This document shows, one piece after another, positions 9,043 to 30,483 of a stretch of 39,506 nucleotides of DNA. A program made the position numbers and the translations under genes. The DNA is taken from contig JALONK010000054.1 of NCBI GenBank assembly GCA_025454975.1, positions 1 through 39,506 on the forward strand, written 5' to 3'. The notes below the pieces were generated by a model, which worked only from the letters and a program-made list of their open reading frames with translations, made no database searches and was not told where the DNA came from. How positions within the stretch are numbered: the stretch's first letter is position 1; each line of letters opens with the position of its first letter. This stretch comes from Bacteroidia bacterium (GTDB lineage Bacteria > Bacteroidota > Bacteroidia > UKL13-3).

Positions 9043-10476
9043 ATGAAAACAATCAACTTTAATCGCACAAAAATTGTTGCTACCATTGGACCAGCAACCG
9101 CAAGCTACGACATGCTGAAAGCCATTATTGAGGAAGGAGTTGATGTTTGCCGATTAAATTTTTCGCACGGAACTTACGACGACCATAAAAAGGTGATTGA
9201 TAACATTAAACAAGTAAATACTGATTTAAACTCACATGTAAGTATGTTGCTCGACTTACAAGGACCAAAATTACGTGTGGGTGAAATGGAAAATAATAAA
9301 GTTGAACTAGTTACCGGTACCACCATTAAAGTAAGTACAAAACCTGTGCTAGGAACATCAACACATATATCAGTAAAGTTTGAAACCTTGGCTGCTGATG
9401 TTAAACCTGGCGAATTGGTTTTATTAGATGACGGCAAAATTGAATTAGAAGTACTGTCAACTAATGGTATTGATGAAATCCTTTGCAAGGTGAATTTTGG
9501 AGGCGTGTTATCTTCAAAAAAAGGATTCAACCTACCGCATACTAACTTAAGTATTCCGGCGATGACCGAAAAGGATAAGGCAGATTTGCTTTTTGGTATT
9601 GAACAAAAAGTAGATTGGATTGGTTTGAGTTTTGTACGTAAAGCGGAAGATATTATTGAACTAAAAAAAATAATAGATGAGCATGATTGGAAACCACGGG
9701 TTATAGCAAAAATAGAGAAACCTGAAGCACTTGAAAACCTTGATGAAATAATTGCAGTTACTGATGGTGTTATGGTTGCGAGAGGGGACTTGGGTGTGGA
9801 GTTACCCATGCAACAGGTTCCTGTGATTCAAAAACAAATTGTAAAAAAATGTATTCAATCAGGCAAACCTGTAATTATTGCAACACAAATGATGGAGAGC
9901 ATGATTACCAGTGCTTCGCCTACCCGAGCAGAAGTAAATGATATAGCCAATGCTGTTATGGATGGCGCTGATGCTGTAATGTTAAGTGCTGAAACTTCTG
10001 TTGGTGCCTTCCCGATTTTAGCTATCAGACACATGCAGCGCACGATTGCAGAAGCAGAAAAAACAAATGCTCCATTCTATAAAGGAGTTCGTCCAACCGA
10101 AGATTCACCTACGTTTTTAAGTGACGAAATCTGTTTTACAGCAGTAAGGATGAGTGATCACATCAAAGCTGCTGCCATTGTTAGTATGACCTTTAGCGGA
10201 TATACTGCTTACAAAATTTCTTCGTATCGTCCGAAAGCATCAATCTATATTTTCACAGGTAATACCCGCTTGATAAATACGCTTAATTTGGTGTGGGGTA
10301 TTCGCGCTTTTTATTACAAGAGTTTTGAAAGCACCGACCAATCTATTCAAGATGTAAACAATTTATTAAAAGAAAAAGGGTTAGTATCAACCGGTGATTT
10401 AATCATTAATACAGCTAGTATGCCAATTCATGAGCGTACCAGAACAAATGCTATCAAGATTAGCGAAATCGAATAA
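9043..10476 (+). CDS. pyk: Pyruvate kinase
   Basis: The 477-residue glycolytic enzyme converts phosphoenolpyruvate and ADP to pyruvate and ATP. It opens with TKIVATIGPAT and the CRLNFSHG motif, then a B domain (about residues 70-165). The pyruvate kinase active-site signature is around VIAKIEKPEALENLDEI (about 225-241), followed by VARGDLGVELP and IATQMMESM. The C-terminal regulatory domain is complete. Length is normal for bacterial pyruvate kinases. It is a monocistronic-looking gene with a -7 box upstream and a strong terminator downstream, which it shares with the convergent pnp. Confidence 0.97.
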   Translation: MKTINFNRTKIVATIGPATASYDMLKAIIEEGVDVCRLNFSHGTYDDHKKVIDNIKQVNTDLNSHVSMLLDLQGPKLRVGEMENNKVELVTGTTIKVSTKPVLGTSTHISVKFETLAADVKPGELVLLDDGKIELEVLSTNGIDEILCKVNFGGVLSSKKGFNLPHTNLSIPAMTEKDKADLLFGIEQKVDWIGLSFVRKAEDIIELKKIIDEHDWKPRVIAKIEKPEALENLDEIIAVTDGVMVARGDLGVELPMQQVPVIQKQIVKKCIQSGKPVIIATQMMESMITSASPTRAEVNDIANAVMDGADAVMLSAETSVGAFPILAIRHMQRTIAEAEKTNAPFYKGVRPTEDSPTFLSDEICFTAVRMSDHIKAAAIVSMTFSGYTAYKISSYRPKASIYIFTGNTRLINTLNLVWGIRAFYYKSFESTDQSIQDVNNLLKEKGLVSTGDLIINTASMPIHERTRTNAIKISEIE

Positions 10477-17448: not shown

Positions 17449-19025
17449 ATGCTGGTAAAAACATTTGGAAGCGCAGTATATGGAGTAAATGCCGTAACCA
17501 TAACAATTGAAGTAAATGTATCTGATAAAGGTGTTGGCTACAGTTTAGTTGGCTTACCAGATAATGCAGTTAAAGAAGGTCATCAAAGAATTGAAACTGC
17601 TGTTAAAAATATTGGCTTAAAAATGCCACGTTTAAGGGTTGTAATTAATATGGCACCTGCCGACATACGAAAAGAGGGCTCATCATACGACTTACCTATT
17701 GCCCTTGCTTACCTTGCCGGAAGTAATCAAATGAATGGCGAACAATTAAGCAAGTTTATAATCATGGGAGAGCTTGCATTAGACGGAACTTTAAAGCCGA
17801 TAAAAGGAGCTTTACCAATAGCCATTCAGGCATTAAAAGAGGGTTTTGAAGGTTTAATTATACCAATGGAAAATGTGAAAGAAGCAGCAATTGTTAGTCA
17901 ATTAAAAGTATATGGTGCAAATCATCTTAAAGAAGTAGTTGACTACTTTAATAATGAAGGAAATTTAAACCCTGTAATTATAGATACGAAGGCAGAATTT
18001 GAACAAAATTTAACCAAGTCGGAATTTGATTTTGCAGATGTGCGCGGACAAGAAAATATAAAACGAGCATTAGAAATTGCGGCTGCAGGTGGGCATAATG
18101 TAATTCTGATTGGTCCGCCGGGTGCTGGCAAAACCATGTTGGCCAAACGGCTTCCTGGAATTCTTCCCCCATTAACTTTAAATGAAGCATTAGAAACTAC
18201 AAAAATTCATTCAGTTGCAGGAAAAATAGGACGCGATACTTCGTTGGTATATCAACGTCCGTTTAGGAGTCCGCACCACACCATCAGTGACGTCCGTTTA
18301 GGAGTCCGCACCACACCATCAGTGACGTTGCATTAGTAGGTGGAGGAAATAATCCTCAACCGGGCGAAATAAGTTTGGCACATCATGGTGTATTATTTCT
18401 TGATGAATTACCTGAATTTAAAAGAACAGTTTTAGAGGTAATGCGTCAACCATTAGAGGAACGAAGAATTACCATTTCTAGGGCTAAATTTTCAATTGAA
18501 TATCCGGCCAGTTTTATGTTGATAGCTGCAATGAACCCATGTCCGTGCGGTTATTTTAATCATCCCGAAAAACAATGTGTATGCGGACCGGGAGTCGTGC
18601 AACGATACATAAGTAAAGTTTCGGGACCATTATTAGATAGGATAGATATTCATGTAGAAGTTACTCCGGTAGATTTTGACCAGTTGGCGGAAGCAAGAAA
18701 ATCAGAAAATAGTAATGAAATAAGAACACGGGTGATTAGAGCCAGAAGTAGACAAATAGAAAGGTTTATAACAACAGAAGGATTGCATAACAACGCCATG
18801 ATGAGCACAACCATGGTAAGGGAAATTTGCACAATTGATTCGGTCGGACAAACCTTGTTAAAAACTGCTATGAACAGACTACAACTTTCTGCAAGGGCTT
18901 ACGATCGCATACTAAAAGTTGCAAGAACCATTGCCGACTTATCAGACAGCGAGGAGATAAAAACAGAACATTTAGCCGAAGCCATACATTATAGAAGTTT
19001 AGATAGGGAAACTTGGGGAGGGTAG
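17449..19025 (+). pseudogene. comM: YifB/ComM-type AAA+ Mg-chelatase-like ATPase, frameshifted by a 35-bp duplication
   Basis: Two reading frames together encode a YifB/ComM protein, an AAA+ helicase-like ATPase that aids branch migration during natural transformation. The first frame (17449-18336) holds the Lon-like N-terminal domain and Walker A GPPGAGKT (about residues 222-229). The rest, from about 18336 to 19025, holds Walker [11 protein letters not shown], the Cys-rich [13 protein letters not shown] region and the C-terminal sensor region. An exact 35-bp tandem duplication (18256-18325) lies between them, shifts the frame and causes a TAG stop at 18334-18336 after an aberrant tail. Deleting one copy gives an uninterrupted 513-residue protein of normal length, reading [19 protein letters not shown] across the join. 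The break is therefore recent, reversible by slippage, or an assembly artefact. Confidence 0.93.
18256..18325. repeat. Exact 35-bp tandem duplication inside yifB/comM
   Basis: Copy 1 is 18256-18290 and copy 2 is 18291-18325. They are identical, and three more matching bases (CGT) follow at 18326-18328. Because 35 is not a multiple of three, the duplication puts the downstream half of the gene out of frame. Confidence 0.97.
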
Positions 19026-19032
19026 CGTTAAT

Positions 19033-19380
19033 TTATAAACTTAACTCTCGCATAGGATCCCAAAATAATTCGCTAAAACACTCCACCTGATCATTAACCA
19101 CCTTCACTCCTTCTGATGCTAATAATTCTTGCATTCGTGTTGGAGTTGCGAAATGATGTTTGCCCGTCAGTAATCCATTGCGGTTAACAACTCGATGCGC
19201 CGGAATCTCAGGTATGGCATGAGCTGCATTCATGGCATATCCAACAGTGCGGCTACTTTTTGCTGTACCTAAATACCTTGCAATTGCTCCATAACTTGTA
19301 ACCCTTCCTTTGGGAATAAGCTTTACCACTTCATAAACATCATTAAAAAAAGTACTTGGTGATTCAGTATTTTTTTGCAT
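19033..19380 (-). CDS. Alkyltransferase-like protein (ATL, MGMT family lacking the acceptor Cys)
   Basis: The 115-residue protein is the DNA-binding half of the O6-methylguanine-DNA methyltransferase family, with the helix-turn-helix VTSYGAIARYLG (residues 27-38) and the recognition region RTVGYAMNAA (44-53). The active-site PCHR motif reads PAHRV (60-64), so the alkyl-accepting Cys is Ala. Such ATL proteins bind O6-alkylguanine and recruit nucleotide excision repair rather than reverse the damage. I start it at ATG 19380 and not at the upstream TTG (19431), because that TTG lies within the -33 box of the predicted promoter. It is convergent with yifB/comM. Confidence 0.87.
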   Translation of the reverse strand: MQKNTESPSTFFNDVYEVVKLIPKGRVTSYGAIARYLGTAKSSRTVGYAMNAAHAIPEIPAHRVVNRNGLLTGKHHFATPTRMQELLASEGVKVVNDQVECFSELFWDPMRELSL

Positions 19381-19400
19381 AACCTTTCGCTTAGTTATAA

Positions 19401-19432
19401 CAAATGAAAAGGCTTTAGAAGGATTAAACAAG
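19401..19432 (-). promoter_or_regulatory. Promoter of the ATL gene
   Basis: On the minus strand, CTTG (19429-19432) and TTCATTTG (19401-19408) are separated by 20 bp. The second box is one mismatch from TAnnTTTG and ends 20 bp before the ATG at 19380. Confidence 0.45.
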
Positions 19433-20942: not shown

Positions 20943-21376
20943 TGATATAATTTTAAATGGATATAGATTTTTAAAGTTAAGTATCTTAATTGGTATTTGA
21001 ATCTATCATTATGTAATTTAATTGAATTCAGTTAGCAAATAAGACAACACCAAAATAATAAATCATTAGAGATTTATAACATTAATTTTTTACAACAAGA
21101 ACTATGCTAGTTCATTAGACAACTGTTATAACTATTGCCAGTTGATTAATTATGAGCATTAATCGTTTTGAAAATTGTAGTTAATGTTTTGTACAAATGA
21201 TTTATACTTTTATTAAAACTACACGAAACAGAGGGACTTGTTGATAGAAGAAATCATTAATTTATTAATATTGAATCCAATAAACAAATCTATAAAAATA
21301 GCCTTTAACAAAGGATAAAGCCGCTAAACTTTTATTGATATAAGGAATAGCCATGTGCTTATATCCACGGTTCAAT
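20943..21376. other. Long AT-rich intergenic region
   Basis: This stretch holds no reading frame of note on either strand. I see three short inverted repeats: AACTA/TAGTT (21100-21112), CAACTG/CAGTTG with a 13-nt loop (21120-21144), and CCTTT/AAAGG with a 3-nt loop (21302-21314). None is followed by a T-run. It separates the GH25 gene from the TrpF-like gene, whose -7 box ends the region. A small RNA is possible but not supported by the sequence alone. Confidence 0.5.
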
Positions 21377-21388: not shown

Positions 21389-22012
21389 ATGGCATTTTTA
21401 ACTAAAATAAAACTAAGCAGTGTAAATAATTTAAGTGATGCAAGATATGCAGCAGCAGTTGGGATAGATTATATCGGATTTTGTTTTGACCATACTCATC
21501 CTCAATACATCGCCCCAATAAAAGCAAAAGAAATGATGGATTGGATCACCGGAAGCTTTCTTGTTGCTGAGTTCGGTAATCAATCATTAGAAAGTATAAT
21601 AGACATTAGTGACGTTTTAGGTGTTGAAATTATCGAAGTTGATAACAATCTGCTGCCGGAACAACTGACACAATTAAATAAATCCATAATTAAAAAAATT
21701 GATGTCACACTTTTATCCAATGAACTATTAAAAAATGTTTTACAAGCCTATGATGGAGTTTGCGACAGTTTTCACTTTTATGCAAGTCGGCAACTAACTC
21801 CTGAAGAACTCACGAACTGTATTTCATTTATTCAGGATTATAAAATTATATGGGGCATACCGCTAGACATTCATACTTTATCAAACTTTGTTTTGCAACA
21901 TCATCCTTATGCTATTCATTTAGCAAGTGGAGAAGAGGAGCGCGCAGGTATTAGAGATTTCGATGACTTGACTAGTATATTAGAAACATTAACCATCGAA
22001 GAAACCGAATAA
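21389..22012 (+). CDS. Degenerate TrpF-like (phosphoribosylanthranilate isomerase fold) protein
   Basis: The 207-residue protein aligns by eye to phosphoribosylanthranilate isomerase (TrpF) at both ends. The start TKIKLSSVNNLSDARYAAAV matches the KICGITNLEDA block, and the end HLASGEEERAGIRDFDDL matches DVSSGVE..PGKKD. However, the catalytic Cys of KICG is Ser, the general-acid Asp of the LLDT segment and the GGSGK loop are absent (SFHFYASRQLTP instead), and the LSGG phosphate loop is replaced by WGIPLDIHTL. It is therefore unlikely to isomerise PRA, and no other trp gene is nearby. I start it at 21389 because the upstream in-frame ATG at 21353 lies before the -7 box. It overlaps the MgtC gene by 1 bp. 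Confidence 0.75.
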   Translation: MAFLTKIKLSSVNNLSDARYAAAVGIDYIGFCFDHTHPQYIAPIKAKEMMDWITGSFLVAEFGNQSLESIIDISDVLGVEIIEVDNNLLPEQLTQLNKSIIKKIDVTLLSNELLKNVLQAYDGVCDSFHFYASRQLTPEELTNCISFIQDYKIIWGIPLDIHTLSNFVLQHHPYAIHLASGEEERAGIRDFDDLTSILETLTIEETE

Positions 22013-22710
22013 TGAACATTGGAGAATTAGCTATAGGTCAGTTTGAGCATAGGTTGTTACTTGCTTTTGTGGCAGGTACCATTATTGGAATGGAGCGACA
22101 ATGGAAACATAAAATTGCAGGTGTTAAAACTAATGCATTAGTAGCAGGTGGGGCTGCTTTGTTTGTATTGATTGCGGAAAAGATTACAGTTGACGGCTCG
22201 GCTGTTTCACGTATTGCTGCGAATATCATTACCGGTGTTGGTTTTTTGGGGGCTGGTGTTATGATGAAAAACGGAACTAACATCGTTGGTATAAATACTG
22301 CAGCAACCATTTGGTGTTCAGCAGCAGTGGGTGCTTTGGCCGGATTAGGATTTTGGTATGAATCATTGGTTGGTACTTTTTTTGTTGTAATTGGTAATAT
22401 TATTCTTCAGCCATTAGGAACTAAGATTGAAGCAAAAATTAACAGAATTCAACAAACCGGAAATAGATATCAGTTAACTCTCTACATGGATAAGGAAATT
22501 GTTAATGAGGTTAAAGAAACACTGGTCAATTTGATTCATGAAACTGAAACATTACATATTGCTTCACTACAATCCAATTCGAATGGCGAAATCATTGCAG
22601 AAATTAATTCATTAGATAAAAGACAATCAGACTTAAATGAAATTGTAGAAAATATACAACAAAAACATGCTATTCAATCCATCAGGTGGGTTGATTTAAA
22701 GTCGGAATAA
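22012..22710 (+). CDS. MgtC/SapB family inner-membrane protein
   Basis: The 232-residue protein has four or five hydrophobic segments in its first 140 residues and a soluble C-terminal part (about 150-232). The MgtC/SapB signature is clear: IGMERQWKHKIAGVKTNALV near residues 25-44 and ANIITGVGFLGAGVMMK near residues 65-81, then GINTAATIWCSAAVGALAG near 88-106. MgtC-group proteins help cells cope with low magnesium and modulate ATP synthase in pathogens; SapB-type roles are less clear. The start codon overlaps the stop of the TrpF-like gene (TAATG), so translation is coupled. The C-terminal domain is ACT-like in length, but I cannot confirm the fold. Confidence 0.88.
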   Translation: MNIGELAIGQFEHRLLLAFVAGTIIGMERQWKHKIAGVKTNALVAGGAALFVLIAEKITVDGSAVSRIAANIITGVGFLGAGVMMKNGTNIVGINTAATIWCSAAVGALAGLGFWYESLVGTFFVVIGNIILQPLGTKIEAKINRIQQTGNRYQLTLYMDKEIVNEVKETLVNLIHETETLHIASLQSNSNGEIIAEINSLDKRQSDLNEIVENIQQKHAIQSIRWVDLKSE

Positions 22711-25302: not shown

Positions 25303-28300
25303 ATGGATTCTTGTTTCTTAAAAATTCGCAATTACCCCACAAAAATTATAGCATTAATCACTTTTTTGCTGATTAATACTAATATCAATGCACAAACCAA
25401 AACATTTTCAGGTACCGGTAATTGGAATGATGCTGCAAGATGGAGTCCTTCAGGTACTCCTGCAAGTACTGACCTTGTGATAATCTCTGCCGGCTCAAGT
25501 GTTACTGTTAATGGTGATTTCACCTGCGACAGTATGGTGTTTAGTTCTAACTCAACATCCAGTACAGTTACTATATCCGGAACAAATCACTTAACTGTTA
25601 CAAGGGGAATAAGATTCACGAATCCATCTGCCGGTTCAATTTCTCAAACCATTGCAGTTGGTGCCGGCCGTTTAACAACGGCTATTGTTACTATGAATGG
25701 AAGTAATAATTCAGGAAGAACGAATAATATCACAGTTTCAACAGGACTTGTAACTATATCCACAGATTTGTCAATGGCTGATGGTACAGCGAACGACAAC
25801 AGATTTGAATTTACAGGAGCCGGAACCCTTCGTTTAGGCGGTACATGGTCTAATCTTGGTAATGCAGCTAATTTTATAAACGGAACAGGTACTATTGAAT
25901 ATACACGCTCCAGTGCACAATCTATAAGGGCAAGAACTTATAATAAATTGCGATTAAGTGGTGGAACTAAAACCCCGGCGGGTAATATCGTTGTTAATGA
26001 TACATTTGATATCGTTTCCGGTGCAACGTTAGATAATAGTGGGACAGCTAATTTAACCATGAATGGCGTTTTTTATATACAAGGAACTTATACAGAAGGA
26101 AGCACAAGTGGTAATGTTACTTTGGTAGGTTTAGTGCATGTAACTTCAACAGGAACATTTAATGCAACTGTTGGTGAATCGTTTGTAATACGCGGTGGAA
26201 TTTTAAATAATGGAACTTTCAACTCTGGAACCGGTGGTTTTACTTTTGCAACCAACAATCAAACATTATCAGGTACAAGAGCTATTGTTTTTCTTGGAAA
26301 TGTTACAGTTACCGGCATTACTCTTACAAATGAAGACTCGGTTCAAATAAACGGTAATTTTACGGGCACAGGGGCATTTGATAATCTCTCTTTAAGTTAT
26401 TTACGTTTAAATGGAGGAACAACAAGTATAACTACCTTAACTGCGACAGCAAGTAATAATACTGTTCATTATGGAAGAACTAGTGCTACACAAACGTTAA
26501 TAGCTACAACTTATCATAACCTAAGAATTACTTCGGGAAGTACTAAAAGTTTGGCTGCTGCTACTACGGTAAATGGCGACTTATTTGTTGAGTCAGGTAC
26601 AACTTTTAACCTAACAACTTTCACATTAAATATGGGTGGTAGTTCAACAAATTCAGGAACAGGTATAATTCAAACAAATTCTACAGGCACACCATATACC
26701 GCCGGTAGAACTTGGGCTAGTACAGTTCGTTTTAACGTGAATGCCGGCCAAAATGTACCTCAAGGCACCTATGCTTATCTCGATCTTAGGGGAGGCGGAA
26801 GTAAAGTAGCAACAGGAGCAATAACTATTAATGGAACTCTAGATATTGCATCTGGAACAACCTTTAGTATGTCTACATTTAGGTTGATTAATGGTGGTAC
26901 CTTTACAACTGTAAACACCGGGACATTAAGTACTGGTTGCACAACTTTTTCACCAACTCCTCCATTTCCAACCGGAATTACTTATACATTTAACTCAATA
27001 GTTTATAATTCGGCCAGTGCTCAGGAAGTGGTTAATGGAACTTATATTTCATTGAATATATCAGGTGGTCCTAGAACATTTTCCTCAGCAGGAAACATAA
27101 ACATTACGGGAATTTTCACTGCTGGCTCGGGCCCATTTACTGTAACCGGAAGTTTGGTAAATTTTAGCCTAGTTGGCTCCCAAAATATACCCGCATGTAC
27201 ATTTAATAATTTAACATTGTCGGGAGGAGCTACAAAAACAGCTACCGGTAATATTACCGTAAATGGTACACTAAATATTCAAGCTTCAACAACGTTAAAT
27301 TTGAGTACGTTTCAGTTATTAGGTTCTTTAACTAACAGTGGGCCTTCTACTGGAACAATATTTACAGAATTTGCAACAGCTGCAACACCACCAATTCCAA
27401 ATGGAGTAACTTGGTCGAGTACGGTAAACTATCGCGCTAATTCTTCAAATCAGGCTATTAGCGGTGGTTCATATGCTTCATTAACTATCAGCAGAACAAA
27501 TACAACAGCTTATACCAAAACTGCCTTAGGAAATATTTCGTGTGCTGCAACACTTAATGTGGCAACGGGCTTAACTTTAGCCATGTCAACCTTTGCGTTA
27601 AGCGGTGATTTTAGTACAGCAGGAACAGGTGTGTTAACAACCACACACAACTCAACTGTTAGTCCGATTACAGCCGATAGAACATTTACTTTCGGAGTTG
27701 AATACAACGCTAACTCAGGAACCCAAACTATTGTTCCGGGCACATATACAACATTAACATGCAACAATGGTGCTACAAGAAATTTTGCTACCGGTAACAT
27801 AAACATCAGCGGCTCGTTAACACCCGGAACCAGCACTTTTACTGCTTCAGTTGGGAGTACAGTTACTTTTACTAGTAGTGGTACGCAAACAATTCCTGCC
27901 ATTACTTTTCACAACTTAAGTTCAACAGGTACAGGTTCCAGAACACTTGCTTCAGGCACTGTTAATGTTGCAGGTAATTTTAGCGCAGGTACCAACACTT
28001 ATACCGTAACCGGCAATACCATGAACTTTAATGGGGTTGATCAAAATATTAGTGGCATCCCCGGTGGATATAATAACTTAGCTACCGCTGGAAGTGGAAC
28101 CAAAACTGCTACACAAAATTTAGTAATAAACGGTACGCTAACCACAGCCGTTAACACCACATTAAATTTAACTGCTGCCTTTACGCTAAGTGGAACCTTA
28201 ACTACTGTAACGAATAATGGAACTATAAGAACAGGTGTACCTACTACGCTATCATCAACTCCAATTCCAACAGGAAGAACTTGGGCCGGTACAATTGAGT

Positions 28301-30483
28301 ACAATGGCTCAGGAGCTCAAACTTTTGTTGCCGGGACTTACAATAATGTAATTATTAATAATACAGCATCAGGTGGAGTAAGTTTAAGTTCAAGTCCTAC
28401 CATTAATGGTACACTTACTTTTACCAACGGAAGATTATTTATTGGCGCTAACACCTTAACCCTAGCAGGAAGTATTGTTAATACAGTTACAGGAGGATTA
28501 TCTGGTGGCAGTACAAGTAACTTAACAATTAATGGAAATGTTAGTCGTACTTTAAGTTTTAACCAAACCACACCAGGTACAACTAACGTGCTTGATAATT
28601 TGGTTAATAACTCATCATCAGGAACAACTACTATTGGTAATACGTTACGTATTATTACCGAAGTTACACCTACATCAGGAAGTATAAATGCTTCTGGTAA
28701 TTTGGTATTAGTTTCTACTTCTTCGCGCACTGCAAGAATTGGTACAGGAACTGGTTCATATATTACAGGTAATATAATTGCACAAAGGTTTGTGCCTTCA
28801 ATATCTCGCAGGTGGAGATTTTTATCTAGCCCTGTTAACGGCGCTACAATTGAAGATTGGCGCGGGGAAATATTTATTACCGGTCCGGGTACAGGAACTA
28901 CTGTTGGAACAACCAACAGCAATGGATATGATGCCACTCAAAGTAATGCAGCAGGTATTTTTAGTTATGACGAAACAGCTACTGGTGATTTAAATGCAGG
29001 TTGGACAATACCTTCAACTACAAGCACAGCCTTACAAACCGGAAGAGGTTACAGGGTTTTTGTACGCGGTGACCGTTCAGACATCAATCGTTTGAACAAT
29101 ACAAACATGACACAAAACTCCGTAACAATGGATGTGATTCAAACACCAAATATTGGTGCCATAAGCATGCCTGTATTTTATACAAATAACAGTACTGCCG
29201 AAAATGTGGGCTGGAATTTAGTTGGTAATCCATACCCAAGTTCTTACGACTGGAATGCTTTCCATGATTTGGGCAGAAGTGGAAACAGCGGAACATATTA
29301 CACAAATATTGAACCTACTATTTGGGTATTAGACCCTAATGATAACTCTTATAAATTCTATAATGCCCTTTCAAATAGTGGAACAATTACAGGAGGTATA
29401 ATAGCTCAAGGACAAGCATTTTTTGTGAAAGCAACAGGAGCAAGTCCTGCGATGACCTTCAGAGAAGAATATAAAGTAGCTACCAATCCTACTCCATTAT
29501 TAAAAACTAACGAAGAAGGGGCTTTTAGTATAAGAATGGTTAGAGATAGCATTAACGCTGATGAGTTGTTAGTGAAATATATGTCGGCATCTACTACTAA
29601 TTTTGATGCTTATGATGTGAGGAAATTAGCAAGCCCAGTTTCTATTGCAGCTTGGGATAACGATAGTATATTTTTATCCTTATCTGTGCGTCCGCTTAAT
29701 CAACAAAATGACACCATTCGCTTATCGGTTAACGGAAACGTAAGTGGTAACTATCAGTTATTGTTTGCAAACAGTACAGCAATTGATGTGCAAGACCAGG
29801 TATTTTTAGTGGATAGATTCACCAATACTGTAACAGATTTAAAAAATACTTCAACTTACAGCTTCAGTATTGCCAATAATAACCCGGCTACTTTTGGACT
29901 AAACAGATTTTTTATAGTTGTTGCTTCAAATCAAGCAGTACCAGTTAAACTTATTAGCTTTGGTGCTCGCAAAAAAGCTGATAAACAAGTTGAACTACAT
30001 TGGGCAACAGCCATCGAGAGAAATGCTTCACATTTTGAAATTGAGCATGCAGGAAGTGATTTAGTTTTTCATAAAGTTGGTAGACTAAAAGCTAAAGGCA
30101 ATAGTGATATTATTAGTCAATATTCATACTTACATACAGGAGAAAACGTAAACTATTACAGATTAAAACAAGTGGATTGGAACGGTGATATTATGTATTC
30201 TGACATTATTAAAGTTGACTTTACTACAGATGATTTAGTTATAGAACAACCACTCCAAATTTATCCGATACCTGCTGAACATGAAGTGAATGTAAAACTG
30301 AACTCAACTCATAATATCTTATTAATAACAGTTAATAAAATTACCGGTGAATTGGTTTACGAAAAAGAATTACAAACTAAGTCGCATCGCCTAATTACAG
30401 AAAATTGGGAGTCCGGTACTTATGTAATTACTGTTATGGATGAATCAGGATTTATTCTACGCGAAAAAATAATTAAGCAATAA
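25303..30483 (+). CDS. Giant T9SS-secreted repeat protein
   Basis: The 1726-residue surface or secreted protein starts with a signal peptide (about residues 1-31). An opening TFSGTGNWNDAARWSPSGTP block is typical of Bacteroidota adhesin-like proteins. From about residue 195 to 1055 there are roughly ten degenerate repeats of 60-105 residues sharing a pattern of V.Y...QTI..GTY..L...GG..K...GNI.VNGTL.I..GTTL.LSTF.L, rich in Thr, Gly, Asn and Ser and predicted to form a beta-solenoid. A non-repetitive module follows (about 1155-1480, RRWRFLSSPVNG, WNLVGNPYPSSYDWN). Then comes a PVKLISFGARKK..ELHWATAIERN module (about 1546-1640). It ends in a T9SS type A sorting domain (about 1650-1726, PLQIYPIPAEHE..). 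Function is probably adhesion or surface structure; no catalytic motif is visible. Its last 11 bp overlap the convergent CMD gene. Confidence 0.88.
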   Translation: MDSCFLKIRNYPTKIIALITFLLINTNINAQTKTFSGTGNWNDAARWSPSGTPASTDLVIISAGSSVTVNGDFTCDSMVFSSNSTSSTVTISGTNHLTVTRGIRFTNPSAGSISQTIAVGAGRLTTAIVTMNGSNNSGRTNNITVSTGLVTISTDLSMADGTANDNRFEFTGAGTLRLGGTWSNLGNAANFINGTGTIEYTRSSAQSIRARTYNKLRLSGGTKTPAGNIVVNDTFDIVSGATLDNSGTANLTMNGVFYIQGTYTEGSTSGNVTLVGLVHVTSTGTFNATVGESFVIRGGILNNGTFNSGTGGFTFATNNQTLSGTRAIVFLGNVTVTGITLTNEDSVQINGNFTGTGAFDNLSLSYLRLNGGTTSITTLTATASNNTVHYGRTSATQTLIATTYHNLRITSGSTKSLAAATTVNGDLFVESGTTFNLTTFTLNMGGSSTNSGTGIIQTNSTGTPYTAGRTWASTVRFNVNAGQNVPQGTYAYLDLRGGGSKVATGAITINGTLDIASGTTFSMSTFRLINGGTFTTVNTGTLSTGCTTFSPTPPFPTGITYTFNSIVYNSASAQEVVNGTYISLNISGGPRTFSSAGNINITGIFTAGSGPFTVTGSLVNFSLVGSQNIPACTFNNLTLSGGATKTATGNITVNGTLNIQASTTLNLSTFQLLGSLTNSGPSTGTIFTEFATAATPPIPNGVTWSSTVNYRANSSNQAISGGSYASLTISRTNTTAYTKTALGNISCAATLNVATGLTLAMSTFALSGDFSTAGTGVLTTTHNSTVSPITADRTFTFGVEYNANSGTQTIVPGTYTTLTCNNGATRNFATGNINISGSLTPGTSTFTASVGSTVTFTSSGTQTIPAITFHNLSSTGTGSRTLASGTVNVAGNFSAGTNTYTVTGNTMNFNGVDQNISGIPGGYNNLATAGSGTKTATQNLVINGTLTTAVNTTLNLTAAFTLSGTLTTVTNNGTIRTGVPTTLSSTPIPTGRTWAGTIEYNGSGAQTFVAGTYNNVIINNTASGGVSLSSSPTINGTLTFTNGRLFIGANTLTLAGSIVNTVTGGLSGGSTSNLTINGNVSRTLSFNQTTPGTTNVLDNLVNNSSSGTTTIGNTLRIITEVTPTSGSINASGNLVLVSTSSRTARIGTGTGSYITGNIIAQRFVPSISRRWRFLSSPVNGATIEDWRGEIFITGPGTGTTVGTTNSNGYDATQSNAAGIFSYDETATGDLNAGWTIPSTTSTALQTGRGYRVFVRGDRSDINRLNNTNMTQNSVTMDVIQTPNIGAISMPVFYTNNSTAENVGWNLVGNPYPSSYDWNAFHDLGRSGNSGTYYTNIEPTIWVLDPNDNSYKFYNALSNSGTITGGIIAQGQAFFVKATGASPAMTFREEYKVATNPTPLLKTNEEGAFSIRMVRDSINADELLVKYMSASTTNFDAYDVRKLASPVSIAAWDNDSIFLSLSVRPLNQQNDTIRLSVNGNVSGNYQLLFANSTAIDVQDQVFLVDRFTNTVTDLKNTSTYSFSIANNNPATFGLNRFFIVVASNQAVPVKLISFGARKKADKQVELHWATAIERNASHFEIEHAGSDLVFHKVGRLKAKGNSDIISQYSYLHTGENVNYYRLKQVDWNGDIMYSDIIKVDFTTDDLVIEQPLQIYPIPAEHEVNVKLNSTHNILLITVNKITGELVYEKELQTKSHRLITENWESGTYVITVMDESGFILREKIIKQ
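25888..28470 (+). repeat. Degenerate protein-level tandem repeats within the giant T9SS protein
   Basis: About ten copies of a 60-105 residue unit follow each other. Each has a V.Y strand, a Q-T/N-I segment, GTY..L, then a GG..K turn and a NGTL strand. The DNA copies are diverged, so this is a protein-level and not a sequence-level repeat. The first unit begins near TGTIEYTRSSAQ and the last near TWAGTIEYNGSGAQ. Confidence 0.75.

Follow-up and report, generated by a model that had tools for sequence, protein, structure and literature searches.

A conserved TrpF-derived barrel of the Bacteroidia that has lost the TrpF active site and probably serves a non-catalytic role

Introduction

What is a gene for that codes for the barrel of phosphoribosylanthranilate isomerase (TrpF) and not for its active site? 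The question arises from a contig of a Bacteroidia bacterium (JALONK010000054.1, assembly GCA_025454975.1), all 39,506 nucleotides of which were analysed and are referred to here as the window. A first-pass annotation, made from the sequence of the window, had noted a TrpF-fold protein without the TrpF catalytic residues, with no other trp gene nearby and with translation coupled to an MgtC/SapB gene, and had suggested either a repurposed barrel with a new ligand or a partner of the membrane protein. Here we compare this protein with its relatives and with intact TrpFs, follow its distribution, gene neighbourhoods and selection, and weigh what it may do.

Results

Gene, family scores and predicted fold

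The open reading frame starts with an ATG at 21389 and ends with a stop codon at 22010-22012. Another in-frame ATG is present 36 bases upstream, at 21353; aligned relatives begin at approximately the position of 21389.

21389..22012, + strand: gene of a TrpF-derived (beta/alpha)8 barrel, putative pseudoenzyme, 207 aa plus stop (ORF, Pfam, AlphaFold2 and Foldseek)

The Pfam family PRAI (PF00697) matched residues 11-198 of the protein with 28.5 bits, above the cut-off of 22.7, and 16 of 22 diverse relatives matched PRAI at E<=0.01. These scores bear out the warning of the first-pass annotation that the gene is easily misannotated as TrpF. The NCBIfam TrpF equivalogs, with a cut-off of 215 bits, remained far below it, the best reaching 47.7 bits. 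By sequence, the best solved relative was a Thermotoga TrpF chain (E 9.5e-7).

Structure prediction, which had been proposed as a check, was done with AlphaFold2 on ten unaltered sequences (the window protein and L068-L076) and yielded a complete (beta/alpha)8 barrel with a mean pLDDT of 90 and a pTM of 0.87. In a Foldseek comparison with the PDB the eleven top matches were all TrpF structures, with query TM-scores of 0.70-0.80 at 13-19% identity, and the protein is thus predicted to be a barrel of TrpF type.

The comparisons below use 80 relatives, composed of 31 from the order of the window (window included) and 49 others picked from search hits. Fourteen of the 80 are shorter than 180 aa; these reduced members have 154-179 aa (L104-L106, L151-L153, L158, L163-L166 and L168-L170). 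The model of the 154-aa member L076 has a pLDDT of 88.9 and is predicted to contain strand-helix units 1-4, strands 5-8 and helix 8, with helices 5-7 absent; its best folds are still TrpF. The alignment behind this model held three short members only, which makes the reduced part tentative.

Active site

With the catalytic residues assigned from general knowledge of TrpF, the window protein was aligned with 47 intact TrpFs from its own phylum and with that of E. coli, a family alignment that had also been recommended at the outset. Cys, Arg, His and Asp are present in 47/47 intact TrpFs of this wider alignment and in 31/31 of those in the 80-relative alignment. The corresponding columns of the window protein read Ser10, Gln39, Asp85 and Tyr131.

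21416..21418, + strand: codon of Ser10, aligned with the catalytic Cys of TrpF; Cys in 0/80 relatives and 47/47 intact TrpFs
21503..21505, + strand: codon of Gln39, aligned with the TrpF Arg that binds substrate (SPR motif); Arg in 9/80 relatives
21641..21643, + strand: codon of Asp85, aligned with the His of the TrpF motif QLHG; His in 3/80 relatives
21779..21781, + strand: codon of Tyr131, in the column of the general-acid Asp; Asp in 6/80 relatives; the GG(S/T)G loop that follows is deleted
21926..21958, + strand: loop between strand 8 and helix 8, residues 180-190; Glu183 in 69/80 and Gly187 in 70/80 relatives; largely TrpF-like

Strand 1 therefore ends without the catalytic Cys and strand 6 without the general-acid Asp, as the first-pass annotation had noted, and its statement that two phosphate-binding loops are missing was also correct. 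Beside the deleted loop after strand 6, the GG after strand 7 is replaced. The loop between strand 8 and helix 8 is also a phosphate-binding region in TrpF, and this third loop is present and largely kept; in the window protein it reads SGEEERAGIRD, with low pLDDT at residues 184-188 of the model. By sequence the protein is not a working TrpF.

The loss extends across the relatives. None of the four active-site residues is left in 62 of them, one is left in 18, and two never occur together. Of the loop 6 glycines, the first is found in 0/80 and the second in 5/80. Residual positions are distributed unevenly between order members (n = 31) and the others (n = 49), with 0 versus 6 for Asp, 1 versus 8 for Arg and 0 versus 3 for His. 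Three of the six relatives that keep the Asp belong to one family (code f89), and in one of this family, L147, the general-acid Asp is accompanied by a WGSF remnant where TrpF reads WGGT.

Distribution and phylogeny

A relative of the window protein was detected in 59 of 64 genomes of its family and in 44 of 45 good genomes of its order, which holds one family code in this sample. A profile of the 22 diverse relatives, run over 296 genomes of the class, gave matches at E<=1e-8 in 101. The hits were of two kinds, aligned either from model position 1-10 or only from about position 22 on, and the later-starting ones, where read (20 fetched), were ordinary TrpFs. Hits at E<=1e-8 starting at model position <=10 were obtained in 64 genomes; without G551, whose protein is a true TrpF by sequence, 63 of the 296 class genomes (13 of the order and 50 others, 19 family codes) carry the barrel. 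Five of those 63 (G174, G249, G625, G037 and G004) are outside the 80 relatives. Two hits were seen in eleven class genomes; the ten second copies that were fetched all have the four catalytic residues, and ten genomes hold the barrel protein together with an intact TrpF.

A tree of 78 rows was built from 50 of the 80 relatives, 17 of 21 Bacteroidia TrpFs, 10 of 26 TrpFs of other classes, and E. coli. The 50 relatives group in a single clade (100/99), and a second clade, also at 100/99, holds the 17 Bacteroidia TrpFs. Among the relatives two f89 sequences diverge first, although the support for the rest (93/77) is not firm. The order does not appear as one clade (3 changes), where the inner supports are weak and the bootstrap has not settled. 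A single loss of catalysis would be the simplest reading of these sequences.

Conserved and drifting parts

Conservation across the 80 relatives differs between the elements of the barrel. At helix 1 positions the commonest residue has, on average, a share of 0.80, as against 0.21-0.23 in helices 5-7.

21431..21445, + strand: L15-S-D-A-R19 in helix 1; Leu15, Ala18 and Arg19 in 80/80 relatives
21542..21553, + strand: W52-x-x-G55 at the corner of helix 2 and strand 3; Trp in 80/80 and Gly in 78/80 relatives
21569..21571, + strand: codon of Glu61 in strand 3, a gained acid; Val in 47/47 intact TrpFs, Glu or Asp in 66/80 relatives

Equivalents of Arg19, Trp52 and Gly55 are found in 26/26 trp-operon TrpFs of other classes. 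These 26 (L034-L061 minus L046 and L054) are the sequences from outside the class among the 30 best hits, a choice biased towards likeness, and they are the best-scoring intact relatives of the window protein. They share with it the Arg of D-A-R and the W-x-x-G motif (26/26) but own all four catalytic residues (26/26) and adjoin trp genes, which were found within 1.5 kb in 26/26 cases. The true TrpFs of the Bacteroidia mostly do without these positions (Arg in 2/21, Trp in 0/21). Because both residues mark all 26 of these active-looking TrpFs of other classes, Arg19 and Trp52 are probably older than the loss of catalysis. They could also be retained for folding alone.

Two functional readings of this pattern have to be compared. 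The one that we hold to be probable, and the most likely of all those considered, is a pseudoenzyme that descends from TrpF, is spread across the class and has a role in binding, as a scaffold or in regulation instead of catalysis. Second to it, and in our estimate unlikely, comes a repurposed enzyme in which a new substrate would be handled by new catalytic groups, for example Glu61, Lys8 and the kept loop of strand 8. The exchange of the Val of intact TrpFs for an acid at position 61 speaks for such an enzyme, as do the retention of Lys8 in 54/80 relatives and of Glu183 and Gly187 in most of them, and a barrel that is predicted to be complete in the window protein. However, none of the polar residues at strand ends or in strand-to-helix loops is invariant, the best being Glu183, and position 61 is neither Glu nor Asp in 14/80 relatives; the assignment of residues to the pocket is putative. 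The members below 180 aa also argue against a repurposed enzyme, the modelled one being predicted to have dispensed with helices 5-7. Glu61, finally, may just substitute for the lost Asp of strand 8 as the partner of Lys8.

Gene neighbourhood and MgtC

22012..22710, + strand: MgtC/SapB family gene; it starts on the last base of the barrel stop codon; paired with the barrel gene in the window's genus only
19033..19431, - strand: alkyltransferase-like gene with an MGMT DNA-binding domain and a PAHRV motif, two genes from the barrel gene

In the window, the start codon of the MgtC gene (ATG, 22012) shares one base with the TAA stop of the barrel gene. The coupling noted by the first-pass annotation thus holds for the window, but the overlap is specific to it among the three genus loci measured, since L077 and L078 show gaps of 13 and 15 bases. 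Within the genus of the window, 7/7 genomes found to carry the barrel gene have MgtC next after it, and so has L068, a named record whose gene resembles that of L008. Outside the genus MgtC was seen beside the barrel gene in no other locus (flanks of 1.5 to about 7 kb). A partnership with the adjoining MgtC membrane protein, which would account for the overlap and for the constant order of the two genes in the genus, is very improbable in view of this distribution: the barrel occurs in 18 further family codes, with no MgtC beside it in any locus examined, and other genera couple it instead to a DUF2480-type gene, with 4-base overlaps in L089, L090 and L093. The idea of an MgtC partner was therefore dropped as a general role, the pairing being limited to the window's genus.

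A simple ORF caller supplied the neighbours for 78 loci out of 80 (L111 and L172 had no gene call). In 13 loci of the order the DUF2480-type gene immediately precedes the barrel gene in the same orientation, with a pyruvate-kinase-type gene further upstream. An alkyltransferase-like gene is the immediate divergent neighbour in 14 loci, which come from four family codes, and a trmB-like gene is the immediate convergent one in 6 loci. The recurrence of the alkyltransferase-like and trmB-like neighbours supports orthology across families. No universal neighbour exists among the 78 loci, and neighbourhoods differ between families. A functional link to the DUF2480, pyruvate kinase, AnmK, trmB-like or alkyltransferase-like gene was rejected in each case, as each of these neighbourhoods is kept only in part of the tree.

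The names of DUF2480 (one member), AnmK, MgtC, a class-V aminotransferase and, for the window, the pyruvate kinase and the alkyltransferase-like protein come from a scan; the remaining ones, such as trmB-like and lipoprotein-like, are presumed from the look of the sequences. DUF2480 was named in no paper of the open-licence PMC literature.

Tryptophan genes in the window, the genome and the order

E. coli TrpA-E queries found no trp gene in the 39.5-kb window, as the first-pass annotation had stated, and none around the 80 relatives (0/80 at E<=1e-5, in stretches of 5.7-16 kb and, for the window, 39.5 kb). Whether the genome holds another complete trpF had been put forward as a check. The window genome (G000) is 98.4% complete and was searched for PRAI, TrpA and IGPS. 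A second TrpF over the cut-off was not found; the sole other PRAI hit, C68:31194-31433, reached 21.2 bits (cut-off 22.7) over model positions 88-166 in a 373-aa frame and was taken as another barrel. TrpA gave no hit at E<=0.001 and TrpC (IGPS) one hit of 11.1 bits, below the cut-off of 27. Fourteen control genomes were positive in the PRAI, TrpA and IGPS searches.

The same picture was obtained for the order. PRAI exceeded its cut-off in 28 of 46 order genomes, each time at the barrel locus itself. TrpA hits were seen in 25 of the 46. They lie in frames of 249-303 aa and cover about 41-68 of the 259 model positions; 2 of these 25 score above the cut-off. With coverage of at most about 68/259, these partial hits may be taken for other phosphate-binding barrels and were not counted as TrpA. 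Judged by the searches for PRAI, TrpA and, in the window genome, IGPS, these bacteria look like tryptophan auxotrophs, and in an auxotroph a lone TrpF would make little sense.

That the protein is still a phosphoribosylanthranilate isomerase, working by unusual chemistry or as a PriA-like substitute, is hardly credible. TrpF is its top structural match and Pfam labels it PRAI, yet the Cys is lost in 80/80 relatives and at most one of the four active-site residues is left in any of them; the window genome shows neither a TrpA hit nor an above-cut-off TrpC hit to use the product; and the barrel co-occurs with an intact TrpF in ten genomes. A true TrpF or PriA-like substitute was rejected on the grounds of the residue loss and of the lack of TrpA and TrpC over the cut-off.

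Selection

Values of dN/dS between 0.069 and 0.225 in 12 pairs indicate purifying selection; the pairs were chosen by us, all within the order, 12 of 14 gave values, and the window pair, with a dS of 2.0, is near saturation. A pseudoenzyme is an enzyme homologue without the catalytic residues that is conserved under selection, and this is the combination observed here. That the gene is a decayed trpF, left as a pseudogene in an organism auxotrophic for tryptophan, has next to no likelihood. The missing TrpA of the order, the degenerate sequence and a stop inside the matched piece in 2 of 59 matching family genomes (G002 and G046) might point to it, but the frames are open in the other listed family matches, dN/dS is far from the value near 1 that it calls for, some residues are invariant class-wide, and the barrel is present in 44/45 good genomes of the order.

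Discussion

In fold, and in the kept loop between strand 8 and helix 8, the window family resembles TrpF (PF00697; PDB 1dl3, 1nsj and 1v5x). It differs in the absence of the catalytic Cys, Arg, His and Asp and of two glycine loops, in that no trp genes adjoin it, and in that some of its members have just 154 aa. The probable explanation named above, a TrpF-derived pseudoenzyme of the class with a binding, scaffold or regulatory role, would come about as follows. Early in the class, a TrpF of the phylum's trp-operon type probably lost its catalytic function, in a single event, and would have been retained for another role. The recognition surface would be made up of helix 1 (L15, D17-A18-R19), the W52-x-x-G55 corner and the region of strand 8 and helix 8, with helices 5-7, around the old catalytic half, free to drift and, in the 154-aa member, predicted to be absent. 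This surface probably predates the loss of catalysis, because the same R and W mark the active-looking TrpFs of other classes; the old TrpF would then have had, or readily acquired, a second binding role, which would have been kept when tryptophan synthesis vanished or when another type of TrpF served it. MgtC is not the partner as a rule. Both the non-catalytic state of the barrel and its binding, scaffold or regulatory work are deduced here from sequence comparisons.

A more specific version can be put forward as a conjecture that we would rate somewhat below an even chance. In the ancestor of the phylum, the trp-operon TrpF may have had a second, non-catalytic binding role on helix 1 and the helix 2/strand 3 corner, which in this class outlived the enzyme and turned it into a scaffold or regulator, some barrels now being dismantled towards the 154-aa form. 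If so, the natural variation within the family would show where in a TIM barrel a non-enzymatic function resides.

Several observations weigh against the binding role. A partner search by neighbourhood found none that is constant between families. A ligand or a new reaction could lie behind the gain of Glu61 and the partial retention of the strand 8 loop, and single active-site residues linger in 18/80 relatives.

A known case for comparison is the plant protein PDX1.2, which is a TIM barrel. It is reported to be a pseudoenzyme that regulates vitamin B6 synthesis (PMC6829848). As with the window family, a homologue of a metabolic enzyme would have lost catalysis and been kept for regulation; PDX1.2 acts in a pathway that its host retains, whereas the order genomes here have no complete TrpA. 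Among the papers listed in searches of the open-licence PMC literature, none described a TrpF pseudoenzyme of this phylum, and passages of PMC7311316 and PMC7591586 had no bearing on one.

The analysis delineates a family of conserved proteins which Pfam assigns to PRAI/TrpF and which many members of the class possess. In metabolic reconstructions of auxotrophs the PRAI label would falsely fill a gap in the tryptophan pathway. As the putative pre-existing surface (R19, W52) is visible in intact relatives, the idea that a second role preceded the pseudoenzyme is open to experiment, and the family supplies natural TIM barrels that are predicted to lack three helices.

Additional observations

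The active MGMT motif is PCHRV. In the alkyltransferase-like proteins of the window and of the 14 loci it reads PAHRV in 11/15 and PAQRV in 4/15, and this protein is probably a second non-catalytic relative of an enzyme.

A block that recurs in the order (L082, L090, L092, L093 and others) consists of a small protein, the pyruvate-kinase-type gene, often a lipoprotein-like gene, DUF2480 and the TrpF-like gene, with AnmK further on. In the window the pyruvate kinase (9043-10476) is farther away, some 11 kb separating it from the TrpF-like gene downstream.

At 17449-19025 (+ strand) the window contains a ComM/YifB-type Mg-chelatase-like gene in two ORFs of 295 and 216 aa, which match consecutive portions of one Pfam model. 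In related loci it is a single ORF (550 aa in L077, 523 in L078 and 514 in L086), and the split is either a genuine break or an assembly error. Further downstream, at 25303-30483 (+ strand), the window encodes a repetitive protein of 1726 aa that is probably secreted and ends in a C-terminal sorting-like domain, which we take to be of the type IX secretion style.
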